Below the pieces are notes generated by a model that saw only the letters and a program-made list of their open reading frames with translations, had not been told where the DNA came from and searched no databases. A stretch of 64,000 bases of DNA, taken from Thermococcus sp. P6 (GTDB lineage: Archaea; Methanobacteriota_B; Thermococci; Thermococcales; Thermococcaceae). Shown here in pieces: positions 1 to 33,457 of this stretch (the first letter of the stretch is position 1; every line of letters starts with the position of its first letter). The stretch lies in the NCBI RefSeq assembly GCF_002214525.1, contig NZ_CP015104.1, positions 186,001 through 250,000 of the forward strand. The letters run 5' to 3'. The translations under genes were made by a program, and so were the position numbers.

Positions 1-1304
1 ATCCCGGCGGTGTCCCTGAAGAGAACCCCGAGGCCGTAGCTCAGGGGGAGACGAAGAACCCAGAGGCGGAATATGGCAAGTAACATGCTCTTCTTCGTGT
101 GACCCGAGCTCCGGAAGACGTTGTTCACTGCCGAGAAGATCCCGAAGAAGGGGAGGAAGGCGGAGAAGTACCTCACAACCTTCGTGCTCTCGGCTATTAT
201 CGCCGGATCGTCGATGAAAAACCTGAATATCTCGACCCTGAAGAGGATGAAGAGCAACGTTCCAGCACCGAGTATCGTGAAGTTTATGGCCATCGCCTTC
301 TCCGCTATGGTCTTCGCCCTGTCGTAGAGCTCTGCCCCGACGGTCTGGCCGATCATCGTACCCATTGCCATGCTTATGCCGTCCGAGAAGGCAAACATGA
401 AGTTGGTGAGCCTGTTGGTGATGGAGTAGGTTGAAAAGGCCACGTCGGCGTTACCGAACGCTCCTCCGAGGGTGAAGATTATCTTCGTGAGTATGACGAA
501 GCCGAGGGCGGTCGTTGAGGAACCAACGCTCGAGGGTATTCCCACCCGAAAGATGCGAGAGTAGAACGCTGGGTCAGGCTTAAGGTTCTCCATCGTCAGG
601 TGTATCCCAACCCTCCCGGTGAAGAGGAGGTAACCGCCGACGAGAGAGCCGAGGGTGTTGGACAGCATCGTTGCGATCGCCGCACCCATGACCCCGAGCC
701 TCGGGAAACCGAACCAGCCGAATATGAGCAGGGGGTCAAGCAGGATGTTGAGGAACACGGTCGCCATGTTTATTTTAACCGGCGTTCTGGTGTCGCCTAT
801 GGCCCTCAGGAGGAAGTTGAACGCAAAGAGCGTGAAGGAGAAGGGAATGCCCGCGAAGATTACCCTCGTGTAGGCGAGGGCGTACGGGTAAACCGTATCC
901 GTGACGCTCATAAACCTGAGCAGGTAAGGGGCCGAGAGAACTCCAAACAGACCCACGCCAACGGCGAAGAGCATCATGAGGGAGTAAAGCGCACCGGCGG
1001 CCCTGTTGGCCTTCTCGTATTCCCCCGCTCCAACGTACTGGCTCACGAAGGCGAAGCCGGCCGTCGCAAAACCCATGCCAATAGACATGAAAAACCAGAC
1101 GAGCGGCCACGCCGTTCCGGGGGCGGCAAGTTCCACCCTCCCGAGTTTTCCGAGCCAGAAGGTATCGGTCAGGTTGTAGAGAACCTGAACCAGCTGGTTT
1201 ATGATCAGAGGGTAGGCTAACACCAATAGAGTCTTCACTATCGATCCGTTGAGTATCTCCTCACGCATCCGTGCGACTTTCTCGTTTCTCATTGAGACAT
1301 CCAT
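1..1304 (-). CDS. MATE family Na+/H+-driven multidrug efflux protein (C-terminus cut by window edge)
   Basis: About 434 codons are visible on the minus strand, and the gene runs off the left edge without a stop. My translation begins MDVSMRNEKVARMREEIL and continues as a run of hydrophobic helices with MATE-like segments such as YPLIINQLVQVLYNLTDTFW, GFATAGFAFVSQYVGAGEYE and LLDPLLIFGWFGFPRLG. MATE pumps are usually about 450-470 residues with 12 helices, so only a short tail is missing. The family exports cationic drugs or metabolites in exchange for Na+ or H+; the substrate here is unknown. ATG codons at 1304 and 1292 are both possible starts; GGATG lies five bases before the second. A TATA-like TTTTTATA lies at about 1315-1322. 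Confidence 0.88.
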   Translation of the reverse strand, partial: MDVSMRNEKVARMREEILNGSIVKTLLVLAYPLIINQLVQVLYNLTDTFWLGKLGRVELAAPGTAWPLVWFFMSIGMGFATAGFAFVSQYVGAGEYEKANRAAGALYSLMMLFAVGVGLFGVLSAPYLLRFMSVTDTVYPYALAYTRVIFAGIPFSFTLFAFNFLLRAIGDTRTPVKINMATVFLNILLDPLLIFGWFGFPRLGVMGAAIATMLSNTLGSLVGGYLLFTGRVGIHLTMENLKPDPAFYSRIFRVGIPSSVGSSTTALGFVILTKIIFTLGGAFGNADVAFSTYSITNRLTNFMFAFSDGISMAMGTMIGQTVGAELYDRAKTIAEKAMAINFTILGAGTLLFILFRVEIFRFFIDDPAIIAESTKVVRYFSAFLPFFGIFSAVNNVFRSSGHTKKSMLLAIFRLWVLRLPLSYGLGVLFRDTAG

Positions 1305-15872: not shown

Positions 15873-18800
15873 ATGTATTTTTCATTGCCAAGATGGTTTA
15901 AATCTGGCGACAATTGGAGCTCTATTGGAATAGATTATAAAGTAAAAACTGTTGGTCAACAGGTGATTAACGGGAAAGTATTCAACGATTGTATTAGAGT
16001 GGACATCGATACAAGAAATAGCCCATATCCCTCTAATTATACCAAAGGATATGGGTACTTTATTTTGGCTAAGGGTATTGGAATCGTAAAGTTATGGTTT
16101 AACAGAACGGCAGGCATATACGCGGGGACAACGGTTACTTATACCTACGAAAATCACACGTCCATGGAAAAACATACCATTTCAGGCACAATCAAAACCC
16201 CTGAAGGGGATCCTGTTAAGGGCGTTGTTGTGCAAATCTCCAACTGCGACCCCTGCATTCGTTCAGTGACAGATTCAACTGGTTCGTTCAGTATTCAGGC
16301 TTATGGCCCGGACATTGTTCTCAGAGTGGGGTATGATAAAGATAACGACGGAACTTTCGATTTTGATTTGTATCCTGATTTTCCAATGGAGTTCCACATA
16401 AACAACATAACTTCAGACATTACAGGACTTGTACTGACCATTCCTATGAGGGTGTTTTACGTTCCCGACGATTATACAACGATTCAAGAGGCTATTAATA
16501 ACGCCAGACCGGGGGACACAATAATTGTCAGGGATGGAACTTATAATGAGAACGTTATTGTGAACAAATCGATAACCCTGAAGTCCGAGAACGGTCCTGC
16601 AAACTGTATCATAAACGGTACCGGAAGTGGGAGCGTCGTCACGATCACCGCCGACAACGTCACGATTCAGGGATTCACGATAACCGGCAGCGGCAGTGGC
16701 TGGGGTAACGGTGGGGTATGGGTGGAATCCTCAGGAAACACAATATCCTCTAATGTCATAACAAACAACGGGAATGGCATCTATCTCGATTCCTCAAGTA
16801 ACAACAATATAACCTCTAACAACATCACTTCAAACAGCGGGAATGGAGTCTATCTCGATTCCTCGAGCCACAACAATATAACCTTTAACAACATCACTTC
16901 AAACAATTGGGCTGGTATCTGGCTCCGCGGATCCAGCAACACCACCATAACCTCCAACAACATCACATCAAACGGGGAACGTGGCATCTTCCTCTACTAC
17001 TCCAGCTACAATATTGTAACCAATAATACAATGACTAACGATGGAATCGTCATAGAGGGTTATAAGATAGAGCACTGGAATACTCATGTTATAGAGAACA
17101 ATACTGTTAACGGTAAGCCGGTTTACTACTTCAAGAACAGGGTTGGGGGAAATGTCCCTGAGGATGCCGGACAGGTCATACTTGCTAACACTACTGGAAT
17201 GCTCATAGAGAACTTGAATATCAGTAACACTGATGTTGGAATTGAACTTGGATTCTCCAGCAACAACACCATTAAGAACAGCAACATCACTTCAAACAAC
17301 AGAGAGGGCATTTATCTCTATTACTCAAGCAATAACAATATAACCTCTAACAACATCACTTCAAACAGCGGGGCTGGAATCTTCATCTATGGATCCAGCA
17401 ATAACAATATAGTCTCTAACAACATCACATCAAACGCGTGGGCTGGCATCTGGCTCGATTCATCAAACAACAACACGATCTACCTCAACAATTTCAACAA
17501 CACAAATAACGTTTATTCTGAAAATTCAATCAACATCTGGAATTCGCCAACTCCGATTAAGTACACCTACAACGGCACAACACACACGAGCCACCCCGGG
17601 AATTACTGGAGTGATTACACCGGTTCAGATTCGGACGGAGATGGAATCGGTGATACCCAGTATATAATAGATGCGAACAACAAGGATGAATACCCGCTAG
17701 TGCAACCGCGGGAGAATTATAATTTAAATCCGGTTGCAAACTTCACTTACTCCCCAGAGAATCCAGAGGTAAATCAAACGGTAACCTTCAACGCTTCATC
17801 AAGTTACGATCCTGACGGTTCTATTGTAAACTGGACATGGGGCTTTGGAGACGGAATAACGGCTTCAGGTAAAACAGTTCAGCATACTTACACCAAGCCA
17901 GGAACCTACACAGTAACCCTCACAGTCACGGACGATGATGGGGCAACATCAAACATATCAAAGCGGATAACCGTTGCAACACCGAGCATCCAGTTCGTTG
18001 ACGTGACGGATGGCAACGATGATGTCTTCATAAGCGGCGAAACAGTAACAATACGCTTCAATGCGGACAACAGTAGTCTCAGCCCGGACGATGTTACTTT
18101 CTCGAACATTACTGGTAATGTATCAAATGCTTTAGCACCGTCATTGAAGACAATAAGCTCCGAAATTATCAACAACGTGACCTACTGGACCTACGAGCTC
18201 AACGTAACAGTTAGCGGACATGGGATCCTGAGGGTTTACGTGTGTGGTCAAACACTCACAGATCTCTACGTCTACGAAGTTACAGAGTCAAGTGTGTGGT
18301 CAATAGGAGCAGGCAAAGAAGTCACTGGTGGGGGGAACATCCTCATCAACGACGAACTTCAGATAAACGCAACTTTAGAAGGTCCCGAGGTTCCAGAACA
18401 CTATGCGCTGCCCACCCCGGATAACGCCGAACTCTACGTTCCGGCATTTGAAAGCACGCTGAACTTCGTAAAGTATAACTCCACTGAAGGAAAATGGTAC
18501 TTCTCAAACAACTTCACCATGAGGACGAACGGCACCTTTACCCTCAACATCACCAATGAACATGGCATAAACTTCACTACCAATACAGAAGTACATGTCC
18601 TCCAGCCAGTCATAAAGCTCCTCCCGATAAACAACGGCACCGCTAATCAGAAGCTTGTGGAGTACGCCAACCTCACCAACGGCACTCAAAACAATCTGAC
18701 TCTGAGCCTCCACTACGACCTTACAGTCGAACTAACTCCCGGTGTCAACTGGACAGAGGTTGACGGTAACAATTCTGTTAACAGTAACGTGTACGAAAAC

Positions 18801-21800
18801 GAAAGCGCCAGCAACCTGACCTTCCTGAACGGGGCAAAGGTTACCGTAATTGACGGGACTTTAAGCACCGCCACCCTGACCATCAAAGTCAAGAACCTTG
18901 GCGTTGTGTACACGAAAGACTTTGTAATACTGCCTGAAGATGAGCCGGCAGCGATGGAGCTTAACGCAACGGAAGTCGTTAAAGGCGAACCGTTTAAGAT
19001 AAGTCTTGCCATCACAAAGCCCAACTGGAATGGAACCACAGAGTACAACCTCACCCTCGTGAATGGAAGTCACGAATACCCGGTTGCTACTAATGTCCCG
19101 GTTACAAACGAGTACGTTGACTACATCGTGGATACGAGTACTATGAATAACCTGCCCGTTGGGACTTATAACGTGGTCTTCTTCATGAGCAACGGCACTA
19201 GCAACTACACAACAGTCCAGAATGTGACGATTAAAGAGAACCTTACGCTCAAGCACAAGGAGTCGCCGTGGGGAGCCTATTACCCAAGTGACACCGTAAC
19301 CTTCAACGGAACGTTCCTCAGGATCGACGAGTTTGATAGCACCAACGTGAACATAACAGTCTATCAGAAGAACGCTGCCGGGCAGTGGGTAGATGCAGGT
19401 GCAAATGCGACCAATAGCAGTATCATAATTAACTCGACTGCCAAGACCTACAACTTCACCGTAACTTTCAACGCGCCCGGCGAGTTCAAGGTCATCGTCA
19501 ACGAGACCGACATCCCGAACGTCGAGGCATGCAACCCGATAACGATTTCAGACCACAAGGTCACGCTGAGCGAGAATAGCTCGGTGATAAACCTCGGTAC
19601 ATCAGTAACGATTCAGGTCACCACAACCGCAAACGTTTCAGCTTCAGATCTTAACATCACCGGTGCTCCATTAGAACCCCAGGTTAGTGAAGCGGAAGCA
19701 TTCAACTCGACCACCCATCTGAAGGTCTTCAACGTCACCTTCACGACCAATGGAAGCACCAAACTTGGTTCATGGCCGATAAACATAACCGTCGACAACG
19801 GGGAGGTGAAGGTATTCACCCTCGAAGTGACCGACGAGCTTACTCCAGTGTATGTCCCAAGCAAGGTTGTCCTTGGAAGCAAGATGTTCATGATCCTCAA
19901 TACGACGGCGAACTTGACTGCTGGTGAGTATGACGTCACGGTATGGGCGTTCGGTGTCACAACCACCGAAGCATCAGGTCTTAGCGTCAGCCTTGGAGAT
20001 TACAACGATGGATACAGGCTCCTCAACGTGACGTTTGACATAACCCAAAACATTTACAGCAAAGACCCAGAAAACTATCCAACCCACTACATGAACGTCA
20101 CCGATGGTCACCTCTGGATTGAGAAGCAATTCGAGATAGTGGAGGATCCTGCACTTTACATCGAACCGGTTGGAACCGTTGTCGTTGGCCAGAACGTAAC
20201 CTTCGAGGGAACAACATTACTCGCACCAGGAGAATATGTGACGGTCAACATAACCAAGGTCGATCAGGAGAACGTCTTCGAGGTTCCAGTCAAGCTCGAT
20301 ACGAGCGGGGACGAGAATGTCTTCACCTTCAGCCACAAGTTCATCGAACCCGGTCTCTACAACGTGACCGTGAACTGGAGTAAGTATAAACATACCATCC
20401 AAGTCAACGTTACCAACGAGGGCGTCCTGTCATTGAACACCGACAGGAACGAGTACTACCCAGATGGCAAGATAAAGATTACCGGCCAGCTCGACAACGT
20501 CACTGAAGATGACGCAATAACCCTCAAATTCTACTGGGTGCGTGGAAATGCAACTTCGAGCGCCGATCTCGTCAACGGTAGCTACGAGTACTACTTCGAT
20601 ATGGATATGAATGACGTCCAGCCCGGCGACCTCAGGATAGAGGCCACATACTATGGCAATGCCAACGCAACCAAGACCGTAACAATTACAGACACCCCAG
20701 TGATCGAGAATGTTGTTGTCCCAGCGAAGCCCGTTAAAGCAGGAGAGCTCTTCAACGTCACGGCCGATACCAACCTCGGTATCAACGGCACCGTTGCCCT
20801 TGAGATCGTCAAGGCCGACAACGCAAGCGATGTTAAGTTCAACGGGAACGTTAAGGTGAGCGAGGGCGGAGCCTTCCTCTACACGGTAAACACCACCGAC
20901 TGGACGGCGGGCTACTACAACATCACACTCAGCAAGGGCAGTGTTGAAGTCTCAAAGCAGGTTTACATCTATGTAACCGGGGCAAACATCCGCCTTGTCG
21001 ATGGAAGCCTCGTGGTAGAGCCTCTCAACGGCACCGCTCCACTGACAATTAACGTCAAGGCAAACGTCACCAACACGGGCGACCTCGACGGTACTTACAC
21101 GGCTGAACTCATGGTCAACAATATAACAGTAAAGAACGTGACCGTGACCGTACCCTTCGGTGAAGTGGTTCCAGTTGAGTTCAACTACACTCTTGAAGAG
21201 TCGGGAGTTTACAACGTTACGATAGGCGACCTAACACCAGTAGAAGTTACGGTCCTCAAGCCTGCAACACCAGAGTTCAGCAACCTGACGGTAGAGCCTC
21301 TCAACGGCACCGCTCCACTCGATATCACGGCAAGTGCCGTGGTTAAGAACATCGGAGAAGTGTCAGGCACCTTCACTGTCGAATTCAAAGTTAACGGCGA
21401 AGTCAAGGCTACCAGAGAAGTTGAGCTTGCGGCTGGAGCCAACACTACAGTTGAGTTCAACTACACTCTTGAAGAGCCGGGAGTTTACAACGTTACGATA
21501 GGCGACCTAACACCGGTGCAGGTTACAGTCGAGAAGAAGCCTTATGCCACGGTGGATGAGTATGTGCAGAGGGTTGGGAGTGCCGGCACTGTTTACTTCG
21601 TCTTCAACAACCTTGGAACGCCTGACGCTTACTCAACCGCCTTCTATATGAGTCGTACAGTTGGTGGCGCAAGGACAAAGTCAGTGCCTGCCAAGGACTT
21701 TAACATGAGTGCCGTGAATGCCAGTGACGTGGTTATTTCGGTGGGCGGCCCACTGGTCAACCCGGTAACCGCAGCCTACGAGGACATTGCCCCAGTGCAC

Positions 21801-22163
21801 ATGCTGATCAACGGTAGCAACGTAACCATCGTAACTCCTAACACTAACTTCACGTGGAGCGCTCCAAAACCGTGGTGGAATGCCACGGAGGGATACTTCA
21901 TTATACAAGTGTTCCAGGATGACAATACTGGAGCCTTCGTAGTGACGATTTATGGTACTGACGCGGACAGCACGGCGGCAGGAGCTTACTACTTCATGAG
22001 CAACGTGTATCCAAACCTCGCAAACTACACCGGCATTCGCTACCTCGTTGGCCTCTGGCAGGATACCGAGCTTGGAGCCGACATTCCATTGCCGGGCGAG
22101 GACCTTGGAGACACCAGCGGATTCAGCGCAGGAGACACCATAACAATAGTGGAAATGGGCTGA
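15873..22163 (+). CDS. Giant multidomain surface protein body (beta-helix, PKD, Ig-like repeats, S-layer-like C-terminus)
   Basis: The open frame really extends back to 15825; 15873 is only its first ATG and has no convincing ribosome-binding site, so this is the downstream part of the gene starting at 15470. Domains in order of the 2096 residues: a carboxypeptidase-regulatory-like fold (ISGTIKTPEGDPVKGVVV); NosD-like right-handed beta-helix repeats (about 200-560); a PKD domain (VANFTYSPENPEVNQTVTF ... DDDGATSN); many beta-sandwich repeats rich in N-x-S/T sequons; two CARDB-like tandem repeats near 1715-1890; and a C-terminal region (VISVGGPLVNPVT; TDADSTAAGAYYF) resembling S-layer C-terminal domains. 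It is likely an adhesin or S-layer-associated protein. There is no clear C-terminal transmembrane helix. Confidence 0.82.
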   Translation: MYFSLPRWFKSGDNWSSIGIDYKVKTVGQQVINGKVFNDCIRVDIDTRNSPYPSNYTKGYGYFILAKGIGIVKLWFNRTAGIYAGTTVTYTYENHTSMEKHTISGTIKTPEGDPVKGVVVQISNCDPCIRSVTDSTGSFSIQAYGPDIVLRVGYDKDNDGTFDFDLYPDFPMEFHINNITSDITGLVLTIPMRVFYVPDDYTTIQEAINNARPGDTIIVRDGTYNENVIVNKSITLKSENGPANCIINGTGSGSVVTITADNVTIQGFTITGSGSGWGNGGVWVESSGNTISSNVITNNGNGIYLDSSSNNNITSNNITSNSGNGVYLDSSSHNNITFNNITSNNWAGIWLRGSSNTTITSNNITSNGERGIFLYYSSYNIVTNNTMTNDGIVIEGYKIEHWNTHVIENNTVNGKPVYYFKNRVGGNVPEDAGQVILANTTGMLIENLNISNTDVGIELGFSSNNTIKNSNITSNNREGIYLYYSSNNNITSNNITSNSGAGIFIYGSSNNNIVSNNITSNAWAGIWLDSSNNNTIYLNNFNNTNNVYSENSINIWNSPTPIKYTYNGTTHTSHPGNYWSDYTGSDSDGDGIGDTQYIIDANNKDEYPLVQPRENYNLNPVANFTYSPENPEVNQTVTFNASSSYDPDGSIVNWTWGFGDGITASGKTVQHTYTKPGTYTVTLTVTDDDGATSNISKRITVATPSIQFVDVTDGNDDVFISGETVTIRFNADNSSLSPDDVTFSNITGNVSNALAPSLKTISSEIINNVTYWTYELNVTVSGHGILRVYVCGQTLTDLYVYEVTESSVWSIGAGKEVTGGGNILINDELQINATLEGPEVPEHYALPTPDNAELYVPAFESTLNFVKYNSTEGKWYFSNNFTMRTNGTFTLNITNEHGINFTTNTEVHVLQPVIKLLPINNGTANQKLVEYANLTNGTQNNLTLSLHYDLTVELTPGVNWTEVDGNNSVNSNVYENESASNLTFLNGAKVTVIDGTLSTATLTIKVKNLGVVYTKDFVILPEDEPAAMELNATEVVKGEPFKISLAITKPNWNGTTEYNLTLVNGSHEYPVATNVPVTNEYVDYIVDTSTMNNLPVGTYNVVFFMSNGTSNYTTVQNVTIKENLTLKHKESPWGAYYPSDTVTFNGTFLRIDEFDSTNVNITVYQKNAAGQWVDAGANATNSSIIINSTAKTYNFTVTFNAPGEFKVIVNETDIPNVEACNPITISDHKVTLSENSSVINLGTSVTIQVTTTANVSASDLNITGAPLEPQVSEAEAFNSTTHLKVFNVTFTTNGSTKLGSWPINITVDNGEVKVFTLEVTDELTPVYVPSKVVLGSKMFMILNTTANLTAGEYDVTVWAFGVTTTEASGLSVSLGDYNDGYRLLNVTFDITQNIYSKDPENYPTHYMNVTDGHLWIEKQFEIVEDPALYIEPVGTVVVGQNVTFEGTTLLAPGEYVTVNITKVDQENVFEVPVKLDTSGDENVFTFSHKFIEPGLYNVTVNWSKYKHTIQVNVTNEGVLSLNTDRNEYYPDGKIKITGQLDNVTEDDAITLKFYWVRGNATSSADLVNGSYEYYFDMDMNDVQPGDLRIEATYYGNANATKTVTITDTPVIENVVVPAKPVKAGELFNVTADTNLGINGTVALEIVKADNASDVKFNGNVKVSEGGAFLYTVNTTDWTAGYYNITLSKGSVEVSKQVYIYVTGANIRLVDGSLVVEPLNGTAPLTINVKANVTNTGDLDGTYTAELMVNNITVKNVTVTVPFGEVVPVEFNYTLEESGVYNVTIGDLTPVEVTVLKPATPEFSNLTVEPLNGTAPLDITASAVVKNIGEVSGTFTVEFKVNGEVKATREVELAAGANTTVEFNYTLEEPGVYNVTIGDLTPVQVTVEKKPYATVDEYVQRVGSAGTVYFVFNNLGTPDAYSTAFYMSRTVGGARTKSVPAKDFNMSAVNASDVVISVGGPLVNPVTAAYEDIAPVHMLINGSNVTIVTPNTNFTWSAPKPWWNATEGYFIIQVFQDDNTGAFVVTIYGTDADSTAAGAYYFMSNVYPNLANYTGIRYLVGLWQDTELGADIPLPGEDLGDTSGFSAGDTITIVEMG
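16640..17495 (+). repeat. Coding tandem repeats for right-handed beta-helix (PbH1) units
   Basis: Units of roughly 72 bases encode variants of NNITSNNITSNSGNGIYLDSSS. Near-identical copies lie at about 16780-16850, 16852-16920 and 17320-17400. Each unit is one coil of the helix. The DNA is AT-richer than the window average and similar enough between copies to slip or recombine. Confidence 0.75.
21014..21516 (+). repeat. 276-base tandem duplication encoding two CARDB-like domains
   Basis: Two 92-residue units start near 21014 and 21290. An identical 30-base block opens each (21014-21043 and 21290-21319), and a block of about 68 bases with only two differences closes each (21173-21240 and 21449-21516). 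The middles are clearly diverged at protein level. The offset is 276 bases for both blocks. Confidence 0.85.
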
Positions 22164-26400: not shown

Positions 26401-27015
26401 TTGAGGGTTCCCTACGTGCTCTTCGAGACGAACACCGGGAGGTACGGTCTGGATGCCTACTTCTCGATGAGGGTGGATGCGGTGGAAAGGCGGGCGACCC
26501 TGATAAGGAGGGCCGACGATCTGAGGAGGGTTGAGGAGAGGCCTTCTACAGCACTCCTCGACGGTGAGTCCGTCGGGGAATATCTGAGGTCGCTGTTCCT
26601 GACCCTCTACGAGCTCAGCGGTGAGAGATTCAACGAGAGGATGGGCCATATGAGGCGCTGGAACGTCTGGAGGATGATCGGCATACCCACCGGACACTGG
26701 CGGCACCTGAGGAAGGACGATGAGCTCGCCCGAAGGAACAGGGAAGCCCTCCTCGCTCTGGAGATAATGAGGAAGGTCCTCGGCGTAAAGCACCCGGGAG
26801 ACCTTGAAAAAGCCCCGGTCAGGCCTCTGGGCTACGCCCTCCTGGAGGTTGAATTCAGGGACGGTAAGGCCAGCGACCCCGTTTACAGGGAGCTTCTCAG
26901 AATAGACGCCGGTGCCGGGATGGCCCTCCCGTGGCTGGAAATAAAAACGGGAAAGGGGATCACTCCCCCCCGTAGAGCCAGCAGGCCACGTAATGATCCT
27001 TCTCAACCTCGATGA
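26401..27015 (+). CDS. Conserved-looking hypothetical protein, function unknown
   Basis: The 204-residue product starts at TTG with GGGGGTGGGA just upstream. It is charged and soluble, with no signal peptide or membrane helix. The first two thirds look like a folded alpha/beta protein (VPYVLFETNTGRYGLDAYFSMRVD; AGAGMALPWLEIK near the end). I do not recognise the family. The last 56 bases overlap the end of oppF on the other strand, and the tail [16 protein letters not shown] is probably read-through of antisense sequence. Codon usage upstream of the overlap matches neighbouring genes, so I regard it as real. Confidence 0.6.
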   Translation: MRVPYVLFETNTGRYGLDAYFSMRVDAVERRATLIRRADDLRRVEERPSTALLDGESVGEYLRSLFLTLYELSGERFNERMGHMRRWNVWRMIGIPTGHWRHLRKDDELARRNREALLALEIMRKVLGVKHPGDLEKAPVRPLGYALLEVEFRDGKASDPVYRELLRIDAGAGMALPWLEIKTGKGITPPRRASRPRNDPSQPR

Positions 27016-27940
27016 GGGGAGGTTCTTTTTTATCGCAGAGTCCTGCCTTGGCCATGGGGCACCTCGGGTGGAAGCGGCATCCTCCGGGCGGGTTTATGGG
27101 ACTCGGCGGTTCTCCGGTTATCTTCATGCGTTTCTGTTTCAGTTCTCTGGCCAGATCGGGATCCGGAATGGGGATGGCTGAGAGCAGAAGCTTCGTGTAG
27201 GGGTGAAGGGGATTGTTGAACACCTCCTCCGCGGGCCCCACCTCAACCAGTTTTCCGAGGTACATAACCCCTATCCTGTGGCTCATGTACTTGACCACGC
27301 CGAGGTCGTGGCTGATGAAGAGGTAAGTGAAGCCGAACTCCCTCTGGAGGTCCTTTAAGGTGTTCAGGATGTTGGCCTGAACGGAAACGTCGAGGGCTGA
27401 CGTGGGCTCGTCCAGAACTATGAACTCGGGTTTGAGGGCGAGAAGCTTTGCAAGGGCTATCCTCTGCCTCTGGCCCCCGCTGAACTCGTGGGGATAGCGG
27501 TAGAGGTGCATCTCGTTCAGCCCCACGCTCTCGAGCAGTCTTACCACGAACTCCTCCGGATCGTCGACCTCTATGCCGTGAAACCTGACGGGCTCCATGA
27601 TTATCTCAAAGACCGTCTGGCGGGGGTTCAGGGAGGAGTAAGGGTCCTGAAACATTATCTGGGCCTTCCTTCTGAACCACTTCATCTCCTCGCCCTTGAG
27701 CTTCGTCACGTCCCTGCCCTGAAAGATGATCTGGCCTGCCGTGGGTTCTATAAGACGGAGGATCGTTCTACCGGTCGTGGTCTTTCCGCAGCCGCTCTCC
27801 CCTACGAGACCGAAGGTTTCGCCCTTTTCTATCGTGAAACTGATGTCGTCCACCGCTTTAACGTAACCCGTGGTCCTCAGGAGACCCCTGATGGGAAAAT
27901 ACTTTTTGAGGTTCTTAACCTCGAGTAGCGGCTCGCTCAT
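26960..27940 (-). CDS. Oligopeptide-type ABC transporter ATP-binding protein (OppF/DppF)
   Basis: The 326-residue ATPase has Walker [13 protein letters not shown], signature [11 protein letters not shown] and Walker [14 protein letters not shown]. The C-terminal oligopeptide-transporter extension has a cysteine set ([18 protein letters not shown] ... VACWLY) that may bind an Fe-S cluster in this family. It is last in the five-gene order SBP-B-C-D-F, ten bases after oppD, so it is co-transcribed. It energises import with its OppD partner. Confidence 0.92.
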
Positions 27941-27949
27941 GGTATCACC

Positions 27950-28930
27950 TCAGTAAAGGTGGCAGGCCACGAAGTGGCCCGGTTCTACCTCCTTCAGTTC
28001 GGGCACCTCTCTACTGCAGATTTCCACGGCTCTGGGACATCTCGGATGGAAGCGACAGCCACTGGGGGCTTCTATCAGGTTCGGAACGGTTCCGGGTATC
28101 GCCTCGAGATGCTCTATCTTCGTCATCGGGTTTGGAACGGCCCTGAGCAACCCCCGGGTGTAGGGATGGAGCGGGTTTTTGAATATCTGCTCCACCGAAC
28201 CTATCTCGACTATCTTACCGGCGTACATGACGGCCACCCTGTCGGCCATCTCCGCGACGACGCCCATGTTGTGGGTGATGAGTATAATCGTGGTGTCGTA
28301 CTCCTTCTTGAGCCTGTTCATCAGATCGAGTATCTGGGCCTGCACGGTTACGTCCAGCGCGGTCGTGGGTTCGTCCGCTATGAGTATCTTCGGGTTGTTG
28401 GAGACGCCGGTTCCTATGACAACGCGCTGTTTCATCCCCCCGCTCATCTCGTGGGGATAGTTCTTCACCCTCTCCTCCGGATCGGGGATGAGAACACGCC
28501 GGAGCACATCCACGGCCCGTTTAAGGCCCTCCTTCCAGTCCCTGACCGTTCTGTGGACCACCATGGCCTCGGCTATCTGGTAACCCACTGTGTACAGGGG
28601 ATCGAGCGATGCGTTCGGGTCCTGAAAGATGTAGGCTATCTCCTTACCCCGGATGTCCCTGATCTCCTCCGGAGAAAGCTTCAGCAGGTCAACGGAGCTT
28701 CCGTCTTCGCGGTGATAGATTACCCTTCCCCTCACTATCTTCCCGGGGCTTTCGATGAGCTGGGTCAGTGCCCGGGATGTAACGCTCTTCCCGCAGCCGG
28801 TTTCTCCAACGAGGGCGAAGGTCTCTCCCCGGTAGACGTCAAAAGAAACCCCCTCGATGGCCTTTACTATGCCGGCGTAGGTGTAGAAGTGGACGGTAAG
28901 ATCGCGGACCTCGAGAATGGGCTCAGGCAT
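27950..28930 (-). CDS. Oligopeptide-type ABC transporter ATP-binding protein (OppD/DppD)
   Basis: The 326-residue ATPase has Walker A ALVGETGCGKSVTSRAL, signature SGGMKQRVVIG and Walker B ILIADEPTTALDV. The C-terminal extension ends in a cysteine motif, [17 protein letters not shown] ... VACHLY. It overlaps the preceding permease gene by eight bases, so the two are translationally coupled. Confidence 0.92.
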   Translation of the reverse strand: MPEPILEVRDLTVHFYTYAGIVKAIEGVSFDVYRGETFALVGETGCGKSVTSRALTQLIESPGKIVRGRVIYHREDGSSVDLLKLSPEEIRDIRGKEIAYIFQDPNASLDPLYTVGYQIAEAMVVHRTVRDWKEGLKRAVDVLRRVLIPDPEERVKNYPHEMSGGMKQRVVIGTGVSNNPKILIADEPTTALDVTVQAQILDLMNRLKKEYDTTIILITHNMGVVAEMADRVAVMYAGKIVEIGSVEQIFKNPLHPYTRGLLRAVPNPMTKIEHLEAIPGTVPNLIEAPSGCRFHPRCPRAVEICSREVPELKEVEPGHFVACHLY

Positions 28931-30101
28931 TGCTCTCGCCCTCCTTTCTGGACTTCTTGACCTTGAACTCTATGCTCCTCCTCGTCCGGGGATCGAGGAT
29001 GTCCCTCATGGTGTCGCCGAGGAGGTTCCAGCCGAGGGCAACGAGCATTATCATCAGGCCGGAGAACGTGACCAGCCACCATTTCTCCGGGAAGTACTGG
29101 GAGCCGTCGTAGACTATCCTGCCCCAGTCGGCTATTGGCGGCGTGGCCCCGAGTCCGAGGAAGCTCAGACCTGCTTCCATAAGGATAACACCGCCGAAGT
29201 CGAGGGTGATGTAAACGAGTATCGGTCCTATGATGTTTGGCAGGATGTGTTTGAACATTATGGTCCTCGAGCTGAGCCCTATGGCCCTCGCCGCCTCAAC
29301 GTAGAGGTTCTCCCTCTCCGTAAGGGTGGAACCGCGCGTGATCCTCGCGTATGCCGGCCACCAGACGATTATCATCGCCAGTATGACCGCGAGTAGCTTT
29401 CCGAGGTTACCCGCATCCTGCTGCTCGAGGGCAAAGAGCCACAGCACGAACTTCTGAAGCAACTCGTGGGCCGAAATGAAGTTCTGAAGTCTCTGAGGTA
29501 GGACGGCGGAGAAGGCTATGGCCAGTATCAGGGCGGGGAACGCCAAGAAAACGTCGGTGATGCGCATGATGAGCTCATCCACCTTGCCACCGTAGTAGCC
29601 CGCCACCAGACCCAGTACGATGCCCAGCGGAACGCCCAGGACTATGACCAGTATGGATATCACGAAGGACACCCTTGCACCGTAGAGGATGAGGCTGACG
29701 AGGTCCCTGCCGTAGTGATCCGCGCCGAGGGGGTAGTGTACCGTTGCGGTGTACTGAATCACGTTTTTCCCCTGCAGTTCGATGACGTTCATGACGTAAG
29801 TTGAACCGGGAGGGGCGAGGTAGGTGTTGAAGTTGTAGTTGCTCGGGAAGAACCGGTAGCTCCAAGGTGCCAGCCTCGGTCCGAAGATGCCGAGGAACAC
29901 GAACATCAACACGAGGATCAGGCCTATTAACCCGGGCGGAGAGCGGTTCAGGGCGTAGAGCGTAAGCTTCCACTCTTCCATCTTGGAACGGTTTTTCCGC
30001 TTCCAGTCCTTCTTGAAGAGGGCAATGAAGGAACCAATGCCTTCAACCAGCGCATCGGAGAACCTGTCAAGGAAGTTCCTCTCGTACTCTTCCCTTCCCA
30101 T
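28923..30101 (-). CDS. Oligopeptide-type ABC transporter permease (OppC/DppC)
   Basis: The 392-residue permease is longer than the usual 280-300. It has a charged N-terminal extension of about 60 residues before helix 1 and an amphipathic insert near LQNFISAHELLQKFV between helices. The EAA loop that contacts the ATPase is clear: EAARAIGLSSRTIMFKHILPN. LGADHYGRDL is a conserved N-terminal OppC motif. It sits 12 bases downstream of oppB. Confidence 0.92.
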   Translation of the reverse strand: MGREEYERNFLDRFSDALVEGIGSFIALFKKDWKRKNRSKMEEWKLTLYALNRSPPGLIGLILVLMFVFLGIFGPRLAPWSYRFFPSNYNFNTYLAPPGSTYVMNVIELQGKNVIQYTATVHYPLGADHYGRDLVSLILYGARVSFVISILVIVLGVPLGIVLGLVAGYYGGKVDELIMRITDVFLAFPALILAIAFSAVLPQRLQNFISAHELLQKFVLWLFALEQQDAGNLGKLLAVILAMIIVWWPAYARITRGSTLTERENLYVEAARAIGLSSRTIMFKHILPNIIGPILVYITLDFGGVILMEAGLSFLGLGATPPIADWGRIVYDGSQYFPEKWWLVTFSGLMIMLVALGWNLLGDTMRDILDPRTRRSIEFKVKKSRKEGESNA

Positions 30102-30113
30102 TTTATCACCTCA

Positions 30114-31115
30114 TCAGTACCTCACCCTCGGGTCTATGAGGGCGTACAGCACGTCTACAACCAGGTTGGTTATGAGGAAGATCAGGGCAAAGACGGTCGT
30201 TATGGCCACCACCGCCGGGAAGTCGAGGTTCCTGATGGATTCTATGACGTAGGAGCCCATTCCGGGCAGGCCGAAGACCGTCTCGGTAATGGGCGTCCCG
30301 CCGAGGAGGCCCCCAAACTGAAGGCCGAGGACCGTAACTATTGGCACCATCGCGTTCTTGAGTGCGTGACGGTAGATGCCCATCTTCGGAACCCCCTTGG
30401 CCTTGAGGAATCCCACGTAATCACTGTTTATGGCCTCAAGGAAGCTGTTCCTGACGAACCTGGCTATAACCCCCGATCCCATAAAACCGAGGGTGAACCC
30501 GGGCAACCAGAGCCTGTGGAGGTGCTGGCTGAAGGTTGAGAAATCTCCAGTAAGGAGGGCGTCTATCATGGGGATGTGTGTTATCACGTGCTGCGGAGGG
30601 GCCGGGAAACCCGCGAGCGTTATCCAGCGAACTTTGACGAAGAACAGATATATGAGCAGGTAACCCAGCCAGAAGACGGGCATGGAAACGCCCGTGAGCG
30701 CGAAGAACCTTATAATTGTATCCACCCAAGTGTTGCGCTTGAGGGCGGAGATCAGGCCCAGCGGGACGCCTATTATCAGTATGAAAAAGAAAGCCACCAG
30801 CGCCAGTTCGAAGGTTACGGGAAATCTCTCCTTTATATCGTCGAAGACGTAGTTGGAGGTTCTCGGATCCACTATGCTGTTCCTCGCAAGTCCGCTGATG
30901 AGGAACCAGTACTGATCGTACCAGGGGTCGTCGAGGTGGTATTCCCTCCTTATCTGCTCCATGTACTCCTGACTGGCCTTCTCACCGCCGGCCCATGCCC
31001 TGGCAACGTCAGCTGGAATAACGTAGGCGATCAGAAAAACTATGAGCGTGACTCCAATCAGTGTGGGTATGAACGTGAGGAGCCTTCTTATTAGGAACTT
31101 CTTCAGGTTGGCCAA
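30114..31115 (-). CDS. Oligopeptide-type ABC transporter permease (OppB/DppB)
   Basis: The 333-residue permease has six predicted helices, the opening FLIRRLLTFIPTLIGVT and the EAA loop GFLKAKGVPKMGIYRHALKNA. It forms the channel with OppC. It lies 64 bases downstream of the binding-protein gene. Confidence 0.92.
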   Translation of the reverse strand: MANLKKFLIRRLLTFIPTLIGVTLIVFLIAYVIPADVARAWAGGEKASQEYMEQIRREYHLDDPWYDQYWFLISGLARNSIVDPRTSNYVFDDIKERFPVTFELALVAFFFILIIGVPLGLISALKRNTWVDTIIRFFALTGVSMPVFWLGYLLIYLFFVKVRWITLAGFPAPPQHVITHIPMIDALLTGDFSTFSQHLHRLWLPGFTLGFMGSGVIARFVRNSFLEAINSDYVGFLKAKGVPKMGIYRHALKNAMVPIVTVLGLQFGGLLGGTPITETVFGLPGMGSYVIESIRNLDFPAVVAITTVFALIFLITNLVVDVLYALIDPRVRY

Positions 31116-31179: not shown

Positions 31180-33288
31180 TCAGCTCACGCTTACCTCAAG
31201 GGTCTTGAAGCTCGTGGCACCGTAGAGGAACGGTCCGACCCAGTTGTCGGAGTCGAGGTAGTCCGGAACCCAGCCGACGACGTAAACGTCGTACTCGCCG
31301 TGTTCGGTCTTGTCGAGGTAGGTGGGCCAGTTGTAGCTGTTCACCGTTACCTGGAAGCCGAGCTGGCTCCAGACGTTCTGGAGGAGGGTCATTATCTTCT
31401 CACGTGCCGTGTTGCCCTCGTTGTAGATCAGCTCGATCTTGTACTTGGTCGGATCGACGCCGGCCTTCTGGAGAAGTTGCTGGGCCTTGGCGAGGTCGTA
31501 CGTGTACTTGATTATTCCCTCCTCGGTGTATCCGGGCCATGGCTTCGGTATCGGCCCGTAGTTCCGTTCAAGGAGTCCCTGATAGACGAGCTGGGATATC
31601 TGGTCGTAGGGAACGGCGTAGGCCAGGGCCTCCCTGACGAGCGGGTCGTTGAAGGGTTCCTTCTGCGTGTTGAAGACGAGGAATGTCAGTATGGGCTGAA
31701 GGATGTCCGTCTGAACGATCGACTTGAAGCCGTTGAGCTCGAGTCCCTTGACGGTGTCCATCTTCTCGGGCGGTATGGCAACGACATCGGCCGTTCCCGT
31801 CTTGAAGAGGTTGATCCTTGCCATGGCGTCGCTGTTGATGACGTAGATTACCCTCCTGTGTCCCGGGCTGGACGTGGCGTTCCAGTAGTGGGGGTTGTAT
31901 TCGAGGACTATGTAGGCGTCCTTCTGGTAGTCGGCAACGTAAAACGGTCCGGTTCCAACGGGTTTGTCGTGCATGAGCTGGTGGGTCGGGTCGCTCTTGC
32001 CCTCGCTAAGGTAGTTCCACCAGGCGCTCGGGTCGTGCCCGTTGTTGCTCGCCTCGAGTGCTTCCTGATACTTGTCGCCGAGGAGGTACTCCATCGGGAC
32101 GACACTGAGGAACGGGTCCGCGAGTACTCCAAGTACCGGGGCGTAGGGAGCCGGAAGGACGAGCTTAAAGACTCCCGCGGTGTCCCCACTGTAACCGAAG
32201 AACTGCTTGAGCTCGTCGAGGCTCTTGATCTGGGTGCTCTTTCCGTTGAACTCGGCCACGAGCGGGTGGTCCTTGAGGTACTGGTCAAACTCATCCTCCG
32301 TCAGGGCCGCCGAGTGGTTAACGTCCATGAAGGAATTGACCATCCAGCTGACGCTGTGTCCAAGCCTCTCCACACGGAGGAAGGTGAAGGCCACATCCGT
32401 GGCGTCTATCGGGTAGGTCTTCTCGTTCCACGGGTCGTAGGCATTCACACCACCGCGGATCAGGAAGTACCATTCCGTGCCTTCCTCGTTGTGGGCCCAG
32501 GCTACGGCCAGATCCGGGCTGACCTCTTCCGTGTTCTCCTTCCAGTAGGTGACGAGGGTGTCGCCTATCTCGTGCCATATCTCCCATCCGAAGGTCTCGT
32601 AGGTCATTGCGGGATCAAAGCTCTCAGGCCAGCCAAAGGTGGCTATAACGTACGTGTCCGGATCGTTCGTGTAGTCCTTGATTCCCACCTTTACGGAGGG
32701 AGCGTTTTTGTCCTCGCTGAGAAGATCGTAGCGCTCTGCAAGGGTCGGGTGGTAGTAGCGTCCCTTTACCCAGTCCCAGTAAACGCGTAGCTGCCTGTTC
32801 TGACCGAGGATGACCTCAGGAACCAGCTTGTTTCCGAGGATGTAAACCGCCTTGAAGAGCTCGGTCCTTATCGTCGGATCGGTCTGGCGCCTCGCCGCTA
32901 TGATGAGGGCATCCACGTGCTCGTCACGGAAGAAGGCCGGATCGATCGCACCAAACCCCTGCCCCTGTTCCATCAGGGTCTTGACGTCGGGAGTGTTGGC
33001 GGTGTCGACCTCGTATTCCACCCTTATTACCTTCTTGCCCGAGGGAATGCTTACGGTTGGACTGGAGCCTTTGGGTCCGACCACGACGACGCTTTTGTCG
33101 GTCTCTATGACGTAAACCTTCCCCATCTCGAGTATTGCCGACGTGGATTTGGTTTGGGTTGTGGTTTCTGTGGTACCGGGCTGGGTGGAGGTGGTGCCGG
33201 ACTGACCACCGCTGATACAGCCACTGGAGGCCACGGAAAACGCCACTAAAAACACAACCAGCAAAGCCAGCAGGGTTTTTGTTTTCAC
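31180..33288 (-). CDS. Lipoprotein substrate-binding protein of the Opp/Dpp ABC importer, apparently circularly permuted
   Basis: The 702-residue protein starts at GTG 33288 (GGGGTGG upstream; TTG 33291 is an alternative). A signal peptide ends in a lipobox with Cys24, then a Thr/Ser/Gln-rich linker. The family 5 solute-binding core is clear from about residue 209: VIATFGWPESFDPA, SPDLAVAWAHNEEGTEWYF, VGTGPFYV, LVREALAYAVPYDQI, then VGWVPDYLDSDNWVGPFLYG. The protein ends there. The segment that normally follows is instead at residues about 117-189: DPAFFRDEHVDALIIAARR, TDPTIRTELFKAVYILGN and RVYWDWVKGRYYHP. It should bind peptides or oligosaccharides outside the membrane; which cannot be told. 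TATA-like TTTATTTAT is near 33340-33348. Confidence 0.9.
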   Translation of the reverse strand: MKTKTLLALLVVFLVAFSVASSGCISGGQSGTTSTQPGTTETTTQTKSTSAILEMGKVYVIETDKSVVVVGPKGSSPTVSIPSGKKVIRVEYEVDTANTPDVKTLMEQGQGFGAIDPAFFRDEHVDALIIAARRQTDPTIRTELFKAVYILGNKLVPEVILGQNRQLRVYWDWVKGRYYHPTLAERYDLLSEDKNAPSVKVGIKDYTNDPDTYVIATFGWPESFDPAMTYETFGWEIWHEIGDTLVTYWKENTEEVSPDLAVAWAHNEEGTEWYFLIRGGVNAYDPWNEKTYPIDATDVAFTFLRVERLGHSVSWMVNSFMDVNHSAALTEDEFDQYLKDHPLVAEFNGKSTQIKSLDELKQFFGYSGDTAGVFKLVLPAPYAPVLGVLADPFLSVVPMEYLLGDKYQEALEASNNGHDPSAWWNYLSEGKSDPTHQLMHDKPVGTGPFYVADYQKDAYIVLEYNPHYWNATSSPGHRRVIYVINSDAMARINLFKTGTADVVAIPPEKMDTVKGLELNGFKSIVQTDILQPILTFLVFNTQKEPFNDPLVREALAYAVPYDQISQLVYQGLLERNYGPIPKPWPGYTEEGIIKYTYDLAKAQQLLQKAGVDPTKYKIELIYNEGNTAREKIMTLLQNVWSQLGFQVTVNSYNWPTYLDKTEHGEYDVYVVGWVPDYLDSDNWVGPFLYGATSFKTLEVSVS

Positions 33289-33457
33289 CAATAGCCACCC
33301 CCCTTCATTAGGGCGCCCATCTATACATCAGAGGCATAAATAAACCTTTCTATGCATTTGATAGCCCCAGGAGTGTGAAGGGGTAACGTGCTCTGCGAAA
33401 AGCTTAAATGATGCTGTGGTCAAATAAAGGTGTAGAGCCTTTCGCGGTGGTGAAAAA

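Follow-up and report, generated by a model that had tools for sequence, protein, structure and literature searches.

A very probable natural circular permutation of a family 5 substrate-binding lipoprotein in Thermococcus sp. P6, and close orthologues opened elsewhere on the same ring

The substrate-binding protein (SBP) encoded at positions 31180..33291 (minus strand) of the window, i.e., the whole stretch of 64,000 nucleotides of Thermococcus sp. P6 analyzed here, stops without a C-terminal lobe, while a segment resembling that lobe precedes the core. This arrangement raises the question of whether the protein is a circular permutation of the family 5 fold and, if so, whether the permutation was a single event. 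According to the open reading frame and its translation, the gene encodes 703 amino acids ending in ...YLDSDNWVGPFLYGATSFKTLEVSVS, also written ...SDNWVGPFLYGATSFKTLEVSVS. It starts with TTG; an alternative GTG start lies at 33288, the end coordinate given in the first-pass annotation. Against PF00496 (SBP_bac_5) the protein scores 229.9 bits (gathering cut-off 32.4), with the match limited to residues 256-693, and against the DppA equivalog NF043070 it reaches 125 bits, below the cut-off of 1005. On the same strand, the gene is followed by permease 1 (BPD_transp_1; 30114..31115), permease 2 (BPD_transp_1 and OppC_N; 28923..30101) and two oligo_HPY-type ATPases (27950..28930 and 26960..27940), all assigned by Pfam. 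With two permeases and two oligo_HPY ATPases downstream, the protein can be assigned to a Dpp/Opp-type importer as its binding component, and its gene, the first of a Dpp/Opp-type ABC operon, encodes a family 5 solute-binding lipoprotein. Peptides and oligosaccharides are both possible ligand classes of this transporter. Elsewhere in the window, positions 15873-22163 encode a large surface-type protein of 2096 amino acids with NosD/right-handed beta helix and PKD domains.

To describe the order of the parts, segment HMMs (N, M1, M2 and C) were built from unpermuted binding proteins only. On unpermuted homologues (L098, L091) these HMMs read N-M1-M2-C, which is expected because those proteins are training sequences, and on the window protein they read C-N-M1-M2. 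From its N-terminus, the window protein consists of a signal peptide with the lipobox ...VASSGC (Cys25; 33217..33291), a Ser/Thr-rich linker that tethers the relocated piece (residues 26-52; 33136..33216), a family-specific insert containing strands and a 'VVVVGPKG' hairpin (residues 53-117 by alignment; 32941..33135), and the moved canonical C-terminal lobe with the helix DALIIAARRQTDPTIRTELFKAVY and the strand VYWDWVKG (residues 118-196 by HMM and hhalign; 32704..32940). These are followed by the canonical N-terminal portion of the family 5 fold (residues 197-477; 31861..32703; E 2e-37), the middle segment M1 (residues 478-521; 31729..31860) and the segment M2, which forms the present C-terminus (residues 522-703; 31183..31728; E 2e-54), all on the minus strand. 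The M1 match is weak in the window protein (E 7e-3) and ranges from E 1e-4 to 1e-10 in some relatives. The C-segment HMM matches residues ~120-185 of the window protein with E 2e-9, and L043 with E 2e-12; the 'VDALIIAARRQTDPTIRTELFKAVYIL...VYWDWVKGRYYHPTLAERYDLL' segment occupies residues ~118-192, upstream of the core. The first-pass annotation had placed this segment at residues ~117-189, ahead of the core, and had named a permuted alignment as a check; the segment HMMs and an alignment to a doubled copy of the domain both give the rotated order.

Profile-profile comparison (hhalign) of residues 115-184 with the C-terminal end of unpermuted proteins gave E 2.6e-5 (probability 75%) for distant paralogues and E 1.1e-11 (probability 97%) for nearer proteins. 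If the N-terminal segment were an unrelated helical domain that resembles the C-lobe by chance, the phmmer pairing of this segment with the solved Yersinia DppA (5f1q), at just 1.8 bits, would be understandable, but both profile values and the HMM matches to the window protein and L043 speak against such a coincidence. Moreover, type B relatives (described below) carry the segment after M2 and the insert, and in the predicted structure of one of them, L036, the segment aligns with the end of the family 5 structure 5u4o. We therefore consider a chance resemblance scarcely credible.

The other end of the protein is equally informative. Only ~65 bp separate its stop codon from the permease 1 gene, and therefore no second C-lobe can follow residue 703. 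An earlier proposal, made alongside that of a permutation, was a duplication with partial loss, in which the C-lobe-like piece near the N-terminus would be a surplus copy, the protein's own C-terminal lobe having been kept or recently lost; a permutation, too, probably arises through tandem duplication (PMC3320104). However, a C-lobe is absent after residue 703 in the window protein and from the C-terminus of type A orthologues, and the same segment occupies its canonical place after M2 in type B. Since the segment HMMs find each canonical segment once in the window protein, an extra copy is refuted for the present protein, and this history is very improbable. The new termini lie in the loop preceding the C-lobe helix, in agreement with the surface loop proposed earlier, and the lipobox and Ser/Thr-rich linker are found on the new N-terminus. 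The linker had been described as attached to the moved piece itself; its place at the new N-terminus holds, and residues ~53-117, between linker and lobe, are a non-canonical insert. We conclude with high confidence that the window protein is a natural circular permutation of the family 5 fold.

Two AlphaFold models were calculated, for the window protein and for the type B protein L036, from alignments of eight rows each; both are low in confidence (mean pLDDT 62 and 59, pTM 0.45 and 0.41, respectively). With a sequential aligner, which is unable to reveal a permuted lobe, the low-confidence window model matched PDB chains of family 5 proteins over about 161..630 (Z 14.8 over 346 residues, rmsd 7.6 Å). 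Foldseek also returned family 5 proteins for this model, with TM values of 0.2-0.3, and therefore no fold claim is drawn from those matches alone. The L036 model consists of the M2 part followed by the C-lobe, with the insert between the two. Its residues 18..348 superpose on 259..490 of 5u4o (Z 14.5, rmsd 2.6 Å, 143 residues). As the C-lobe helices of the model are residues 308-338 and the superposed range stops just beyond them, the superposition takes in these helices, and the model therefore places the C-lobe segment of type B at its canonical position. Indirectly, this model may also back the reading of a moved lobe in the window protein.

Homologues were aligned locally to two tandem copies of the window domain, whose ring has 651 positions. 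Most of them match a near-full circle of 640-655 of the 651 positions, and the two ends of each such match are neighbours on the ring. The ring is opened at 703/53 in the order of the window protein (type A), at ~76/76 in type A', within a beta-hairpin of the insert, at 473/478 in type B, at 521/522 in type B' and at ~190/197 in unpermuted proteins. The segment HMMs independently agree with these openings, reading C-N-M1-M2 in types A and A', (M1)-M2-C-N in type B and M2-C-N-M1 in type B'. In the window gene, the site matching the type B opening (L036, L039-L041 and many Thermoproteota) corresponds to residues ~473/478 (31858..31875), that of type B' (L037) to residues 521/522 (31728..31729), and that of type A' (L038, L084, L087, L123) to residues ~76/87 within the insert hairpin (33031..33066), all on the minus strand. 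In L036 and L037 the Pfam SBP_bac_5 match is divided into two stretches. Short, low-complexity matches of linker residues to positions 687-703 in the doubled alignment were treated as chance.

In total, 107 distinct permuted proteins were collected (66 of type A, 32 of type B, 8 of type A' and 1 of type B'), with the classes set by the ends of the doubled alignment and type A' by position and score. Type A is the order of most Thermococcaceae genomes sampled (>50 genomes, several of them single contigs), which shows that it is not a sequencing or assembly error, and also of about 25 Thermoproteota genomes. The first-pass annotation had suggested looking for the same order throughout Thermococcales; it is indeed found in most Thermococcaceae, with type B in a single genus, hereafter g2 (L036, L039, L040 and L041 in genomes G096 and G001-G003, of which G002 is a single contig). 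The g2 proteins are 73-78% identical to the window protein. The suggestion of a natural permutation thus stands as far as the rotated order and the single copy of each segment are concerned, but not as one event, since orthologues are opened elsewhere on the ring. Outside Thermococcaceae, type B occurs in many and type A' in some Thermoproteota, and type B' on one MAG contig only (L037). This contig, assigned to Thermoplasmata archaeon B1_G16, carries a permuted gene and a permease fragment most like those of Thermococcales, and sampled phylum-mates are without the permuted family; it may therefore be mis-binned or transferred.

The breakpoint also varies within type A: the cut in Thermococcales is one helix away from that in many Thermoproteota. 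The helix SSVSEAQQVFSG remains C-terminal to the cut in many Thermoproteota type A proteins, lies N-terminal to it in type A proteins of a second Thermococcales subfamily (KAVxYIExHLSxA), and is internal in type B, where the chain ends with ...YWNxxLWxxxYGxKP.

The insert of ~60-75 residues, composed of the VVVVGPKG hairpin and a helix, is shared by permuted members but has no counterpart in the aligned unpermuted outgroups. In type B it lies within the chain, as the connection between core and C-lobe. A Pfam scan of the insert gave no match above the cut-off; Ntox1 (0.02) and AFF4_CHD (0.04) were sub-threshold and taken as chance. The insert could be a fossil of former terminal extensions, internalized when the ring was re-opened elsewhere.

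The permuted gene appears to be maintained. For the pair formed by the window gene and L007, dN was 0.070 and dS 0.733, and the dN/dS ratio of about 0.10 indicates purifying selection on the permuted gene in that pair. At nearly all loci with enough flanking sequence, the permuted gene opens the same operon, and permease 1, permease 2 and the ATPases come after it in this order. The exceptions are L048, L130, L131 and L139, without a partner in the stretch fetched, and L157, where the gene is divergent from the permeases. The type B' gene (L037) also lies upstream of permease 1, which is 69% identical over the part present. A plasmid search returned only distant family 5 relatives, the best of them 25-29% identical and mostly aligned from residue 213 onward. 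Some copies are broken: L051 (G015) is split into two frames, while L057 (G029) and L058 (G078) contain in-frame stops, and in G029 and G078 the operon is partly lost as well. Two genomes hold several type A copies, namely G008 with two (C1:1818137-1820278, and C1:1860548-1861318 plus 2-1360, which spans the start of the record) and G615 with three (contigs 57, 68 and 105).

The number of permutation events was estimated from two trees. For the SBP tree, 52 rows were each rotated to canonical order before alignment, and the root was placed on two long-branched outgroup rows. This tree requires six changes among five orders, four being the least possible, and the type B proteins of g2 (G001-G003, L036) are nested in the Thermococcaceae type A proteins (support 98/90, 100/99 and 96/98). 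The partner tree, based on the two permeases and one ATPase without the binding protein, requires four changes among three orders, two being the least possible, and again places g2 inside Thermococcaceae. In AU tests of groups named after the tree had been seen, a single clade of all type A proteins (p 1.35e-14) and a single clade of Thermococcales type A proteins (p 4.8e-4) were both rejected. The event count is the same whether B was reached twice or was ancestral with A reached several times. We see an even chance that at least six order changes took place, the first event included, that the B loop was reached again in g2, and that the gene or these archaea favor recurrence.

Few permutations would suffice if horizontal transfer or old paralogy had distributed the orders and the trees showed an artefactual nesting. 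Such a history would suit the presence of types A and B in both Thermococcales and Thermoproteota, as well as the two orders within one genome, G249, which has one operon of each of types A' and B, about 580 kb apart (L148, L149). However, different orders still require different permutations, and the binding protein and partner genes of g2 fall inside Thermococcaceae and not with Thermoproteota. Spread of a few old permutations is therefore improbable, and repeated re-opening of the ring remains our preferred reading.

In the permuted protein, the canonical C-terminal lobe stands before the canonical N-terminus, and a short linker joins the old ends. This order probably arose when the gene was duplicated in tandem and in frame and its outer pieces were then lost, in line with the usual model for circular permutation, tandem duplication and loss (PMC3320104). 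Neither a fused double-length nor a partly truncated duplication intermediate was seen in the sampled genomes, in which the longest true family ORF is about 815 amino acids; their absence is still compatible with this route. A double-length frame of 1297 codons (G285/L086) was rejected as an intermediate, since it runs through a masked N stretch. Permutation was repeated within this one family: the ring has at least four main openings (A, A', B and B'), and in each of them the new N-terminus bears the lipoprotein or membrane anchor, mostly via a Thr/Ser/Pro-rich linker. The mature protein would probably adopt the usual two-lobed clam fold and, judging from its partners, may bind an extracellular oligopeptide or oligosaccharide and pass it to the conserved permeases. 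The permutation would thus alter the attachment site of the tether and not the binding cleft.

Whether the position of the tether is also the reason for the permutation is less clear. If permutation were an adaptation of tether geometry, each opening would serve to direct the anchor to a particular side of the protein, an idea also put forward for the tethered, permuted lipoprotein TpMglB-2 (PMC4990184). The anchor is N-terminal in all orders, as a lipobox in Thermococcales and as a hydrophobic segment in Thermoproteota; in type A, 40 of the 66 distinct proteins have a lipobox and 25 an N-terminal hydrophobic segment. A long Thr/Ser/Pro-rich linker is present in most orders (A' excepted), and a C-terminal membrane segment was found in none of the orders among the permuted proteins collected. 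On the other hand, the openings are scattered around the ring and favor no single tether position, and close orthologues that share their partners differ in the opening used. These varied positions argue against one favored tether point, so that tolerance of a ring whose ends are neighbours is at least as likely an explanation, and an adaptation of tether geometry remains a tentative idea that we consider rather unlikely.

Most known natural circular permutations are single, old events. In the present family, closely related orthologues that share an operon position have different chain ends, and one can therefore follow the steps, breakpoints and tolerances of the process in fairly recent sequences. 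Annotation is affected too: in profile searches the permuted SBPs score as partial matches, and parts of them look like absent or additional domains. In transport research, the natural series would uncouple the position of the tether from the binding cleft.

The window protein resembles the family 5 binding proteins DppA, OppA and NikA (PF00496) in its core, its partner operon and the presence of all canonical segments, and differs from them in its rotated order, its insert of ~60-75 residues and the C-lobe ahead of the core. TpMglB-2 (Tp0684) of Treponema pallidum is likewise a natural, circularly permuted, tethered ABC-transporter binding lipoprotein; it was described as 'Type Ic / Cluster Bc', with conserved relatives, and its authors named tethering as a possible reason for the permutation (PMC4990184). 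Unlike the window protein, it has a Type I / Cluster B fold and binds glucose, its permuted part is poorly conserved in sequence, and one topology is described and no series of openings. The window protein is not of this type, as its listed sequence and fold matches are family 5 proteins. Permutations among DNA methyltransferases are old and lie between divergent enzyme classes, whereas the differences in order described here separate orthologues of 73-78% identity that occupy one operon position. That family comprises several circular permutations (Jeltsch, 1999; Bujnicki, 2002, as cited in PMC3320104). The same review treats saposin/swaposin as the model case of permutation by duplication (PMC3320104), which, unlike the present case, concerns a single permutation of a small helical domain in eukaryotes. 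One permuted binding protein, TpMglB-2, was thus already known, from another fold class, whereas neither a permuted family 5 protein nor a permutation series in close orthologues turned up in the open-licence literature searched.
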